Below the pieces are notes generated by a model. That model made no database searches, was not told the origin of the DNA, and saw only the letters and a list, made by a program, of their open reading frames with translations. A stretch of 64,000 bases of DNA from Planctomycetota bacterium. GTDB taxonomy: Bacteria; Planctomycetota; UBA1135; GCA-002686595. The translations under genes and the position numbers were made by a program. Of the stretch, positions 58,653-64,000 are shown in pieces. How positions within the stretch are numbered: position 1 is the stretch's first letter; the number at the start of each line of letters is the position of its first letter. The stretch lies in contig SIAI01000006.1 of assembly GCA_009691855.1 (NCBI GenBank), positions 1 to 64,000 on the forward strand. Direction: 5' to 3'.

Positions 58653-60164
58653 CTACGAACCGATGGTCATCAGGAACTCGCCGTTGATCTTGGTGCGCTT
58701 CATCTTCTGGATGAGCATTTCCATGGCTTCGACCGGGTCGAGCTCGTTGAGCACCTTGCGCAACATCCAGATGCGCTTGATCTCTTCCTCGGTGAACAGG
58801 AGCTCTTCCTTGCGCGTGCCCGAGCGGTTGATGTCGATGGCCGGGAAGATGCGCCGATCGGAGAGGCGCCGGTCGAGCACGAGCTCCATGTTGCCAGTGC
58901 CCTTGAACTCCTCGAAGATCACCTCGTCCATGCGCGAGCCGGTCTCGATCAGGGCCGTGCCGAGGATGGTCAGCGAGCCGCCCTCCTCGATGTTGCGCGC
59001 CGAGCCAAAGAAGCGCTTGGGGAACTGCAGCGCGGTGGCCTCGATGCCGCCCGAGAGCAGCTTGCCGTTCGAGGGCGCCTCGTTGTTGGAGGAGCGCGCC
59101 AGACGCGTGATCGAGTCCAGCAGGATGGCCACGTCCTTCTTGGCCTCGACCAAGCTGCGCGCCTTCTCGATCACCATGTGCGCGACCTTGACGTGGCGCG
59201 ACGAGGACTCGTCGAAGGTCGAGCTGATGACCTCGCACGAGCCCTTGGGCAGCGAGCGCTCGAAGTCGGTGACCTCCTCGGGACGCTCGTCGACCAGCAG
59301 GATGATCAGGTGCACGTCGGGCGCGTTCTCCACGATCGAGCGCGCGATCTGGTGCAACAGCACGGTCTTGCCCGTGCGCGGCGGAGCCACGATCAGGCCG
59401 CGCTGGCCGCGCCCGATGGGCGTGATCAGGTCGGAGATGCGCATCTCCATCGGGTTCTCGCCGGCGCCCTCGAGCATCAGGCGCTTGGTGGGGTAGAGCG
59501 GCGTCAGCTCCTTGAACGGCGTGCGGTTCAGGACCTCGTCCGGATCGTCGCCGTCCACGGTCGCGATCGACTTCAGCGCGAAGTACTTCTCGCCCTCGCG
59601 CGGCAGGCGCAGCTCGCCGGCCACGGTCATGCCCGTGCGCAGGCCGTAGCGCTGCACCATGGAGGGCGGCAGGAACACGTCCTCGTCGGTCGCCAGGTAG
59701 GAGTTCTGGCCCTCGCGCAGGAAGGCGTGGTTGTCGCGGGTGAGCTCGAACAGGCCGGTGACCTGCACGGGCACGTGCTTCTGCAGGCGCGCCAGCGTGA
59801 TGTGCCACACGAAATCGCGCCGGCGGCGCAGGGGCTCGGCCGTCTCGACCTTCTCCTTCTCGGCCGTCTCGGCCAGGTCGGTCAGGTTCGAGCGCATCAG
59901 CTCGCCGTAGTCGACGGGCTTGATCTTGGTCTTCTTGGCCGGCGCGGGCAGGGCCGCCACGAGCGCCTCGATCTCGCTCTCCGAGAGGTCCGCGGGCAGC
60001 GCGGCAGAATCCACGCGCAGCTCCTCGAGCACGGCCGTGGCCGGGCTCCCGCCGCCTCCGCCGTGGCCTCCGCCTCCGCCTCCGCCAAAGCCTCCACCGC
60101 CTCCGCCGCCGCTACCAAAGGGACGGAACTTCTTCCTCTTCTGCCAATTGCGCTTCTTCGACAT
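58653..60164 (-). CDS. rho: Transcription termination factor Rho
   Basis: A 503-residue hexameric RNA helicase. After a basic start, residues 18-40 are almost pure glycine. A Rho_N-like stretch ([15 protein letters not shown], about 92-130) and the cold-shock-like RNA-binding domain follow. The ATPase core contains [16 protein letters not shown] (P-loop about 257-270), [15 protein letters not shown], and [25 protein letters not shown]. The Gly-rich extension is not part of canonical Rho. coaE ends 10 bp upstream, so they may be co-transcribed. Confidence 0.96.
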
Positions 60165-60173
60165 GGCTTCGAT

Positions 60174-60851
60174 CTAGGGGGCCTGATTGTGTTCGCTGTG
60201 GTCGCGGACCGTGAGCTTGGCGAGCAACTCGGCGACGGAGCGCTCGAGTTCGCCTGGGCCGCGATGGTTGGGGAGGACGTGGTGCGCGCGTTTTTTCTTG
60301 TCGGCCAGCGAGAGCTGCGCGGCTTCGCGGCGTGCGACCTCGCCGGGAGGCCAGCCGCGCTCGCGTTGCGCCCGTCGTTCGCGCTCCTCCGCGGGGGCGT
60401 CCACGAAGACGAGCACAGCGCACAGCTGCGCCAGTCCGTGCTGAGCGTCGTTCTCGAGCAGCAGCGGAACGTCCAGGACCACGCGCGGGGTCCCAGCGGC
60501 TCGCGCCTGGCTCAAGCGTTCCCTGATCCTGTCACGAACGAGCGGGTGGGTCCAGCTTTCCAGTTCAGCGCGCAGCCCGGCGCCGTGCTGCGGATCGAAC
60601 ACCGCCCGCGCCAGGAGCGCGCGATCCGCGCGTCCGTCGGGGCCGATCGAGCTCGGCCCGAAGCGCGCGCGCACCCGCTCCAGCACGGCCGGCGCGTCCA
60701 GAGCCTCGCGCGCCAGCTCGTCGGCCGAGAGCACCAGGCCGTCGGGCCCGGCCAGGAGGCGCGCTGCGGCCGACTTTCCGGAGGCGATCCCGCCCAGGAT
60801 CCCCAGGATCAGCGGCCCGCGCGCGGTGGCGTCTTCGCTCGACACGGCCAT
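60174..60851 (-). CDS. coaE: Dephospho-CoA kinase
   Basis: A 225-residue P-loop kinase for the last step of coenzyme A synthesis. ILGILGGIASGKSAAARLL is the P-loop, LSADELAREAL provides the acceptor Asp, THPLVRDRIRERL and VVLDVPLLLEND are conserved, and VFVDAPAEERERRAQRERGW is the LID region. Length is normal with a short C-terminal tail. Upstream is a 278-bp divergent spacer to the BRCT-like coiled-coil gene, in which I see no clear element. Confidence 0.93.
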   Translation of the reverse strand: MAVSSEDATARGPLILGILGGIASGKSAAARLLAGPDGLVLSADELAREALDAPAVLERVRARFGPSSIGPDGRADRALLARAVFDPQHGAGLRAELESWTHPLVRDRIRERLSQARAAGTPRVVLDVPLLLENDAQHGLAQLCAVLVFVDAPAEERERRAQRERGWPPGEVARREAAQLSLADKKKRAHHVLPNHRGPGELERSVAELLAKLTVRDHSEHNQAP

Positions 60852-61129
60852 TCCTGAAAGGGGGGCGAAACCGGCTGCGGAAGGGGGGGTAGAGGGCGCG
60901 AACCCAGACTCGAAACCTCGAGCCCTGGGGGCGACGACATGGCGAGCGTACGGCTCGGTGCGGCGTGGTCAAGGGCGCGAAATCCCATGCGGACCTTGCG
61001 GAAACTGCGCGCGCCGGGGTATCACGTCGCGCTCTCCATCCCCTGCAGAGAGGCCCCGCTGCGCAGGAGAGTCGATCCGGGGCCGCATCTTCAATCCGCC
61101 TCACCCTTCTTCCTCCCTCGGAAGCTCGT

Positions 61130-62398
61130 ATGGTGCGCAGTATCGCCGGGAAGGCCCGCGTCAGCGTCGTCTGGATGGTCACGGTCGGGGTTCTATTCCT
61201 GATCGCCCTCTTCCTCGCGTTCGTGACCCAAGGTCACGTCAAAGAGAAGGACACCGAGGTTGCCAACGCCAAGACCGAGCTGGAGGCGGCCAAGGCCAGC
61301 GTGCGTCAGCTCGAAGACGCGCGCACGAACCTCTCCAGGGTGCTCGGTTGGTACAACCGCGAGACCAACGACTACCAGTCCAGCCCCGAGGCGGCCAAGG
61401 CCGCGCTCGAGGAGCTCAAGAACACCTTCCCTGACCTCGGCGTCTCCGAGCCGGACGTCGAGACGTCCCTGCCGAAGATCCTGGCGGCCTTCAACGTCAA
61501 GACGAGCAAGATCGCCGAGCTCGAGACGCACATCAAGGGCCTCGAGAGCGAGGTCGGCGCGGCGCAGAGCGCGACCAGCACCGTCACGGCCGAGAAGGAC
61601 TCGACCATCGCCGGCCTGCGGCAGCAGATCGCCGACGAGACCAAGAACGCCGAAGGTCGCGTGGCCGAGCTCGAGAGCAGTCTGGAGCAGACACGCACCC
61701 AGCTGTCCGAACGCGATGGCGAGCTGCGTAAGACGCGCGACGACTCGGTCAGCGAGCGCCGCAAGCACGAGGGCCAGAAGGCCATCGACGACGCGCGCAT
61801 CAACCAGCTGGCGCGCGACACGACCTTCGCCCGCGACCCGCACTGGACCAAGCCTGACGGCAGCATCCTCGAGGTCTCCGATCGCCTCGGTACCGGGTGG
61901 ATCGACATCGGCGCGAACCAACGCGTGGTGCGCGGGATCGTGTTCGAGGTCCGCTCCGGACGCCCGGGCGACAACGCGGTCAAGGCCCTGGCCGAAGTCA
62001 CCAGCGTCAAGGGCGGCTCGGCCGAGGTGCTGTTCAGCGCCATCGCCGACCGCTTCAGCCCGCCGGTCGCCGGCGACGTGATCTCCAACCGTCTGTTCGA
62101 CCCGGCCGGCGGTCGCAACGCCGTGCTGGTGGGGCGCTTCTCGGGCGGCTACAACAACGCCGACCTGAAGATCCTGCTCGAGAAGATGGGCATCCACGTG
62201 CAGCCGAAGGTCGACAAGACCACGCACTTCCTGATCGTGGGCTCCGAGCTGTGGAATGACCCCTCGACCGGCGAGCCGCTGGCCGAGCCCATGCAGGTCT
62301 CGGATCTGGCCGAGTACAAGCAGGCCGAGTCGCTGGGCGTGCAGGTCATCCCGCTGCAGGATCTGCGCGAGTTCTTCCGCCTCGGCGTGGGGCAGTAG
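61130..62398 (+). CDS. Membrane-anchored coiled-coil protein with BRCT-like C-terminus
   Basis: A 422-residue protein. One membrane segment at about 11-33, a coiled coil at about 37-235 rich in Glu/Lys/Ala heptads, a beta-rich middle domain (TGWIDIGANQRVVRGIVFEV), and a C-terminal 90 residues that match a BRCT fold: NAVLVGRFSGGYNNADLKIL, then KVDKTTHFLIVGSE, then EYKQAESLGVQVIPLQDLREF. Start at ATG 61130; the 55-residue ORF extension upstream has no support. BRCT domains in bacteria are usually found in NAD-dependent DNA ligase. Function unknown. Confidence 0.7.
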   Translation: MVRSIAGKARVSVVWMVTVGVLFLIALFLAFVTQGHVKEKDTEVANAKTELEAAKASVRQLEDARTNLSRVLGWYNRETNDYQSSPEAAKAALEELKNTFPDLGVSEPDVETSLPKILAAFNVKTSKIAELETHIKGLESEVGAAQSATSTVTAEKDSTIAGLRQQIADETKNAEGRVAELESSLEQTRTQLSERDGELRKTRDDSVSERRKHEGQKAIDDARINQLARDTTFARDPHWTKPDGSILEVSDRLGTGWIDIGANQRVVRGIVFEVRSGRPGDNAVKALAEVTSVKGGSAEVLFSAIADRFSPPVAGDVISNRLFDPAGGRNAVLVGRFSGGYNNADLKILLEKMGIHVQPKVDKTTHFLIVGSELWNDPSTGEPLAEPMQVSDLAEYKQAESLGVQVIPLQDLREFFRLGVGQ

Positions 62399-62493: not shown

Positions 62494-63372
62494 ATGTCCG
62501 CCCTTGCCGGTGCCCAGTCCGACGACCCGTTCGCGCACACGCGCATGTCGCTGGGCGAGCACCTGAACGAGCTGCGCAAGCGGCTCTTCCGCGGGGTCCT
62601 GGGCCTGGCCGTGTCACTCGGCGTGTGTCTGTACTTCAACGAGCAGATCGTGGCCGTGGTGCTGCAGCCGTACCACCAGATGGTCGCGCGGCTGAACGAC
62701 TTCTATCGCACGAAGTACGAGGAGCGCGTCCAGCAGCATCCCGAGCAGCGCGAGAAGTTCTTCGCGCCCGACGGCAGCTTCCGCTTCGAGATCGACGAGC
62801 GCCTGGTGGCTCTGGCGCCGACCGAGTCGATGTGGTTCGTGCTCAAAGTCGCCGGCTACGCCTCGCTGGTGCTCGGCGGGCCGTTCTTGTTGTGGCAGCT
62901 GTGGCAGTTCGTGGCCGCCGGGCTGTACTCGCGCGAGCGCCGCTGGGTGGTGTACTTCTTCCCCCCAGCCCTGTTCCTGTTCGCGGTCGGCGTGCTGTTC
63001 AGCTACTACGTGATCGTGCCCTACGGGATGTTCTACTCCCTGCAGAGCGTGGATCTCGAGTTCGTCAAGCCCACCCTGGGCCTCGACTTCTACTTCGACT
63101 TCCTGTTCACGCTGTGCCTCAGCATGGGGCTCGTGTTCCAGCTGCCGATCCTGATGACCTTCGTCGGTCTGGTCGGCCTCGTCCCGGCCGAGGGCTTTGC
63201 CAAGGTGCGCCCGTACTTCGCGGTCGCGGCCTTCGCCATCGCGGCCTTCCTCACGCCGGGCCCCGACGTCTTCTCGCAGGTCGCGATGGCCGCGCCGATG
63301 GTGCTGCTGTACGAGATCGGCATCCTGGGCGCGCGCTTCGCCGGTCGTCGGCGCAGCGCGGTGGCGCGATGA
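62494..63372 (+). CDS. tatC: Twin-arginine translocase subunit TatC
   Basis: A 292-residue membrane protein recognising twin-arginine signal peptides. MSLGEHLNELRKRLFRGVLGLAVS is the N-terminal signature, ALFLFAVGVLFSYYVIVPYGMFYSL the central one, and MGLVFQLPILMTFVGLVGLV with AAFLTPGPDVFSQVAMAAPMVLLYEIGI follow. The first periplasmic loop is enlarged by about 40 charged residues (RTKYEERVQQHPEQREKFF) relative to E. coli TatC. Its stop overlaps the next gene (ATGA). No tatA or tatB adjoins it. Confidence 0.93.
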   Translation: MSALAGAQSDDPFAHTRMSLGEHLNELRKRLFRGVLGLAVSLGVCLYFNEQIVAVVLQPYHQMVARLNDFYRTKYEERVQQHPEQREKFFAPDGSFRFEIDERLVALAPTESMWFVLKVAGYASLVLGGPFLLWQLWQFVAAGLYSRERRWVVYFFPPALFLFAVGVLFSYYVIVPYGMFYSLQSVDLEFVKPTLGLDFYFDFLFTLCLSMGLVFQLPILMTFVGLVGLVPAEGFAKVRPYFAVAAFAIAAFLTPGPDVFSQVAMAAPMVLLYEIGILGARFAGRRRSAVAR

Positions 63373-64000
63373 GCGCGTCCGTGCGCGCCGCGCTGATCGC
63401 GGTGGGGGACGAGCTGCTCTCGGGCTCGCAGAGCGACACGAACTCGAGCTACCTCGCGCGCGAGCTGGAAGCGCTGGGCATCGCCGTGCTCTCGATCGAG
63501 ATCGTCGGCGACGACGAGCCCGATATCGCCGCCGCCGTGCTGCGCGCCAGCGCGCGCGCCGAGCTGGTGCTGGTCGGCGGGGGCCTGGGGCCGACGCTGG
63601 ACGACGTCACGCGCCACGGCATCGCCGCCGCCTTCGGACGCGAGCTGCACGAGGACGCGCAGGCCCTGGCCGCGCTGCGCGCGTGGTTCGAGCTGCGGCG
63701 CGTGCCGATGAGCGACACGAACCGCCGCCAGGCGCTGTTTCCGGTCGGCGCGCGCATCCTGCCCAACCGCGCCGGCACCGCGCCGGCCTTCCTGCTCGAG
63801 CACGAGGGCCGCGCGGTCGCCGCACTGCCCGGTCCGCCGCGCGAACTGAGGGTGGTGTGGGCCGAGGAGCTCGTGCCCTGGTTGCGTGCGCGTGGCTGGC
63901 TCGGCGCCCCGATCGACGAGCGCCGCTTCTTCCTGTTCGGGATCCCGGAGAGCACCTTCGCCGAACGCGCGGGCGCGTGGATGGCGCGCGAGGCCGAGCC
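63369..64000 (+). CDS. CinA-like protein, molybdopterin-binding-fold domain (3' truncated by window)
   Basis: The first 210 residues are visible, running off the window. RAALIAVGDELLSGSQSDTNSSYLARELEALGI and LVLVGGGLGPTLDDVTRHGIAAAFG match the MoCF-biosynthesis-fold N-terminal domain of CinA. NRAGTAPAFLLEHEGRAVAALPGPPRELR is the next conserved block. The domain hydrolyses ADP-ribose-type substrates in some members, while a C-terminal domain, if present, would be a nicotinamide-nucleotide amidase. Coupled to tatC by an ATGA overlap. Confidence 0.88.
   Translation, partial: MSASVRAALIAVGDELLSGSQSDTNSSYLARELEALGIAVLSIEIVGDDEPDIAAAVLRASARAELVLVGGGLGPTLDDVTRHGIAAAFGRELHEDAQALAALRAWFELRRVPMSDTNRRQALFPVGARILPNRAGTAPAFLLEHEGRAVAALPGPPRELRVVWAEELVPWLRARGWLGAPIDERRFFLFGIPESTFAERAGAWMAREAE

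Follow-up and report, generated by a model that had tools for sequence, protein, structure and literature searches.

Background

The BRCT domain (PF00533) is a textbook intracellular module of DNA-damage response and replication. FlgT is a periplasmic protein of the flagellar ring, and scaffolds of the MreC type consist of a short cytoplasmic N-terminal tail, one transmembrane (TM) helix, a coiled coil and a periplasmic beta domain. The envelope of planctomycetes is unusual, and most known planctomycetes divide without FtsZ. According to a review, the BRCT proteins of most bacteria number just one or two, namely a ligase and a subunit of DNA polymerase III (PMC10386641). In Planctopirus limnophila, 108 essential genes that are phylum-specific and have no known function have been reported (PMC10632474), and a separate mreC gene, Plim_2621, is present in the same species (PMC12283558).

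The planctomycete protein described here shares with the BRCT domain of LigA (and that of RFC1) the fold, the strand order, the glycine of strand 1, the strand 3 motif T-T-x-(Y/F)-L-(I/V)-V-G and the helix 2 motif A-x-x-x-G-V; the sequence homology is significant. It differs from LigA in the loss of the pocket Thr/Ser and of the GSK Lys and in a hairpin insertion after strand 3. In LigA and RFC1 the domain is part of a ligase and of a clamp loader, respectively, whereas in the planctomycete protein it is carried on a membrane-anchored stalk and is probably extracytoplasmic. None of the adenylation, OB, zinc and helix-hairpin-helix domains of LigA is found in the protein, the remainder of which consists of a TM helix, a coiled coil and a barrel. 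The general layout is that of MreC, but a Pfam MreC match is lacking and a BRCT domain is present. The predicted barrel fold of residues 238-324 resembles the C-terminal domain of the flagellar H/T-ring protein FlgT (PF16538); FlgT is, however, a soluble periplasmic protein with other domains, whereas the planctomycete protein is TM-anchored, has a coiled coil and, unlike FlgT, is without flagellar neighbors in the contexts examined. We regard the domain as a true BRCT in a new architecture, and probably in a new compartment as well.

Gene and protein features

The window (i.e., the whole stretch of 64,000 nucleotides that was analyzed) contains the gene at positions 61130..62398 of the + strand. 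The open reading frame, which has orthologs in relatives, starts with an ATG at 61130 and its stop codon ends at 62398, yielding a membrane-anchored coiled-coil protein of 422 amino acids with FlgT_C-like and BRCT domains. A longer frame is possible from a GTG at 60965; the start at 61130 is supported because the conserved family-wide motif M-x-R-S-x-R-G-A-A-R-V-S begins there.

The basic N-terminal tail (MVRSIAGKARVSV; 61130..61168, + strand) is conserved in the alignment and predicted to be cytoplasmic, with a net charge of +3 versus -2 after the TM helix. The TM helix (residues 14-32; 61169..61225, + strand) has a hydropathy of 2.77 over 19 residues. It is the sole TM-grade segment of the window protein, with no other hydropathy window above 1.04, which confirms the one N-terminal membrane anchor proposed in the preliminary description of this DNA. 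A pilin-like or TadE-like N-terminus, suggested by the RGA motif, was dropped, since the Pfam matches of eight N-termini included no pilin-type family and no class III signal peptide (type IV pilin or pseudopilin) family.

The first long helix of the predicted coiled coil (residues 33-72; 61226..61345, + strand) belongs to an AlphaFold helix of residues 13-72 that includes the TM part. The second (residues 110-235; 61457..61834, + strand) was modeled as a helix with a pLDDT of about 90, and coiled-coil families were the top sequence matches. The long coiled coil that had been proposed earlier thus agrees with the model. Sequence matches to Sos7, AAA_13, SMC and Filament were discarded as coiled-coil cross-hits.

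The coiled coil is followed by a FlgT_C-like beta-barrel (residues 238-324; 61841..62101, + strand), which precedes the BRCT domain and is absent from the preliminary description. Foldseek related it to FlgT (3w1e and 8z5n, probability 1.00), and the Pfam family FlgT_C yielded weak matches in nine of 52 members (best E=0.002). No other FlgT domains were found in the Pfam scans of the family, and the neighboring genes are rho, coaE, tatC and polA, not flagellar ones. The AlphaFold model of the whole protein, computed with 30 homologs, reached a pLDDT of 79.8, that of residues 238-422, computed with 52 phylum-wide homologs, a pLDDT of 92.5.

BRCT domain

The C-terminal BRCT domain (residues 328-418; 62111..62383, + strand) was detected by Pfam, a family profile, AlphaFold and Foldseek, and has the predicted order beta-alpha-beta-beta-alpha-beta-alpha. 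The window protein alone matched PF00533 with E=0.0049 at full length (17.5 bits; cut-off 21.3), and its C-terminal half alone with E=0.0014, also under the Pfam cut-off. Among 52 members, 41 matched PF00533 at E<=1 (best 4e-8), and a more distant member (L154) reached E=5.5e-10 and 39.8 bits versus the same cut-off of 21.3. The NCBIfam LigA model TIGR00575 was matched through its BRCT part only (E=1e-9 in L154).

A family profile built from 46 C-terminal domains of relatives was run against the sequences of the PDB. The first 13 matches were all BRCT proteins, including LigA (6e-9 for 1l7b, and 1.8e-7), RFC1 (1e-6) and XRCC1 (0.012); the profile search, the absence of a match in which had been named beforehand as grounds for giving up the assignment, therefore speaks for it. 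A pattern scan of GTDB contigs from the window protein alone gave no match, a narrower alignment being needed; with the family motif the scan also picked up the BRCT domain of a bacterial LigA (L126).

In the AlphaFold model the C-terminal part shows the strand and helix order of a BRCT domain together with the hairpin insertion after strand 3, and Foldseek matched it to the BRCT domain of RFC1 (2ebu), to LigA (9a6z) and to RFC (7u19, rmsd 2.5 A), each with a probability of 1.00. Foldseek also matched F1-ATPase and ferredoxin reductases; these matches were discarded, because they extended over the barrel-plus-alpha/beta composite with an rmsd >12 A, versus 2.5-3.9 A for BRCT domains. By sequence profile and predicted structure, residues 328-418 form a genuine BRCT domain, in accordance with what had first been read from the sequence of the window.

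For a comparison of the phosphate pocket, 52 members were aligned to LigA BRCT domains from sister genomes. The core of the fold is kept, with the glycine of strand 1 in 50, the Thr of the TT motif in 49 and the Ala in 51 of the 52 members. At the positions equivalent to the pocket of LigA, Thr/Ser occurs in four members and Lys in none, although 32 of the 52 members have a Lys/Arg two positions ahead of the conserved Ala, which leaves some doubt about the loss. Judged from this alignment, and with that doubt, the phosphate pocket is lost while the fold core is kept. The BRCT domain of XRCC1 binds DNA through another face (PMC6334254), so that losing the pocket makes DNA binding less likely, though not impossible.

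DxDGDG-type loops are typical of calcium sites common in extracytoplasmic proteins. The first sample contained six members of the most distant group, of which five have a loop of this type between strand 1 and helix 1, and others were found later; the calcium-like loop is inserted after BRCT strand 1 in L071-L074, L164, L169, L170 and L172. It is absent from the class to which the window belongs.

Distribution

Orthologs were found in all 61 genomes searched from the order and in 110 of 110 genomes of the class. A search of the phylum with the class profile gave matches in 335 of 392 genomes, and one with a phylum-wide profile in 393 of 394; about 338 of these matches were strong (counted at E<=1e-20). 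The others, which were weak, number about 55 and lie mostly in the families f45, f76, f67, f75 and f78; they may represent only the coiled coil or a paralog. The protein is near-universal in the Planctomycetota and mostly single-copy, and one member is found in strain Pla86 (complete genome, CP036296). No clear members were found outside the Planctomycetota in the collections searched; two metagenome-assembled genomes (MAGs) labeled Actinomycetes (L123, L125) contain full-length members, and these labels are probably wrong.

The family is not covered by any Pfam or NCBIfam model, and a literature search for BRCT domains together with Planctomycetes or the periplasm, in a library with few subscription journals, retrieved no relevant paper. 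The earlier statement that no described family has this arrangement holds within these sources. The idea that the lineage had lost LigA and uses the BRCT domain of the family in its place was dropped, as 83 of 88 class genomes have LigA; its apparent lack in the MAG from which the window derives (G000) is most likely a matter of assembly incompleteness.

Membrane topology

The preliminary description had argued that, with its N-terminus in the cytoplasm, the protein could serve as a membrane tether for DNA, for a replisome component or for a phosphoprotein. This contradicts itself: since the protein crosses the membrane once, at its N-terminal end, the coiled coil and the BRCT domain would then be extracytoplasmic. 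In 45 of 52 members, with six ties, the N-terminal tail carries more positive charge than the 20-residue stretch that follows the TM helix, and the mean net charges are +2.1 and -0.8, respectively. Further members showed the same in 16 of 20 cases, which brings the total to 61 of 72. By the positive-inside rule this bias corresponds to an N-in/C-out pattern; it is strong in the class of the window and weak in Planctomycetia-type members, the N-terminal tails of which carry charges of 0 to +1. The FlgT-like barrel also favors the extracytoplasmic side, because FlgT is periplasmic. A cysteine content of 0.26% is compatible with this location, a weak sign since the neighboring cytoplasmic proteins are cysteine-poor, too. 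Counting against an outward BRCT domain, those with a known role that were found described all act on DNA or intracellular proteins. From charge bias and domain analogy taken together, the N-terminus is quite likely cytoplasmic and the BRCT domain extracytoplasmic.

Gene neighborhood

Downstream of the gene, after a gap of 95 bases, follows tatC (62494..63372, + strand; Pfam TatC, E=3e-60), and then a gene which by eye we take to be cinA-like (63369-64000, + strand), beginning inside the end of tatC and running off the window. On the other side the divergent neighbors are coaE (60174..60851, - strand; Pfam CoaE, E=3e-33) and rho (58653..60164, - strand; Pfam Rho_RNA_bind, E=8e-20). The order coaE-rho / family gene / tatC is kept in nearly all loci sampled from the class. 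Among 33 phylum-wide loci, coaE was nearby in 19, rho nearby in 16, tatC adjacent in 16 and polA nearby in six; polA is arranged divergently to the family gene in the loci of f30, f62 and f21. From the arrangement in f62 and f30, the ortholog in P. limnophila is expected to be Plim_3010 or Plim_3012, one of the two genes flanking polA (Plim_3011). The linkage to tatC is not obligatory, because it has been lost in many lineages that retain the protein (L070-L075, L173-L181). The neighbors coaE-rho and polA are cytoplasmic in function and were counted against an outward BRCT domain, but their divergent orientation implies that no operon is shared.

Proposed role

We propose that the window gene is one copy of a gene for a Planctomycetota-wide core protein of the inner membrane, held there by a signal anchor, with the coiled-coil stalk, the FlgT_C-like barrel and the BRCT domain all on the extracytoplasmic side. 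The stalk, which may be oligomeric, would keep the barrel-plus-BRCT head at a fixed distance from the inner membrane; the second helix alone, with its 126 residues at 1.5 A per residue, would measure about 19 nm, roughly the width of the periplasm. The head would then dock a protein partner in the envelope in a phosphate-independent manner. As a whole, the reading of the protein as an anchored periplasmic stalk with a docking head of barrel and BRCT domain seems to us about evenly balanced between right and wrong. The docking or scaffolding function, taken by itself and given the topology, is put forward as a hypothesis with about an even chance.

With comparable, middling confidence we suggest that the Planctomycetota ancestrally recruited a BRCT domain of the LigA type and moved it outside on an anchored stalk, that its phosphate site was replaced, a DxDGDG calcium-type loop taking over this place in some lineages, and that it became a near-universal component of the envelope; it would be the first BRCT domain known to function anywhere other than in the cytoplasm or nucleus. 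If the topology is true, this would be a new setting for the domain, with the fold repurposed for envelope work. The family is a specific, near-universal candidate for a part in planctomycete envelope architecture, and is open to testing in a planctomycete amenable to genetics.

Three other roles were considered. The protein might be an extracytoplasmic sensor, the head binding a small molecule, a glycan or an ion, which in the DxDGDG lineages would be calcium, and the coiled coil signaling to the cytoplasmic N-terminal tail. The strong conservation of the tail within the class would suit contact with a cytoplasmic partner, and several lineages have the loop; a sensor is nevertheless unlikely, as a cytoplasmic output domain is lacking, the calcium-type loop is missing from the class of the window and no conserved signaling gene adjoins in the contexts examined.

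A doubtful alternative is the tether proposed earlier, which would require the opposite orientation (N-out/C-in) with a cytoplasmic BRCT domain attaching DNA, a part of the replisome or a phosphoprotein to the membrane. Both the bias of charge in 61 of 72 members and the location of FlgT-like barrels elsewhere, in the periplasm, contradict this orientation, and the pocket Thr/Ser and Lys are not conserved, an argument whose weight is limited by the case of XRCC1. Although LigA provides the closest homolog, the gene has polA, rho and coaE as divergent neighbors and BRCT domains are normally intracellular modules of DNA repair and replication (PMC10386641), the proposal is not supported in view of the charge bias and the lost pocket.

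Improbable, too, is a Tat-linked or general factor of envelope biogenesis, coupled to TatC via a shared operon and serving exported proteins as a chaperone or quality-control stalk. In its favor, tatC directly follows the family gene in the window and is adjacent in nearly all sampled class loci and in 16 of 33 phylum-wide; against it, this order is not kept in the lineages named above. That there is no true BRCT domain, only a chance resemblance in a coiled-coil protein, finds a point in its favor in the window protein's own score under the Pfam cut-off, but is extremely improbable in the face of the widely cleared cut-off in the independent member L154, a profile search with BRCT proteins only at the top, and the concurrence of AlphaFold topology and Foldseek.

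Variants and paralogs

Most class genomes also contain a paralog of about 285 amino acids (L078, the copy in the window's own genome at G000:C14:49874-50410, and L079-L089). It shares with the family the N-terminal anchor, the coiled coil and a barrel-like domain, but ends after the barrel without a BRCT domain and has another N-terminal motif (MSPIGRIFIVLNL). Two tandem copies of the family gene were seen in L067 (1006-2205 and 2325-3671) and L068 (5969-7345 and 7403-8719). The C-termini of L071, L072, L160, L161 and L169 extend beyond the BRCT domain as a tail with repeated [ST]SGxVSxxF-like motifs.
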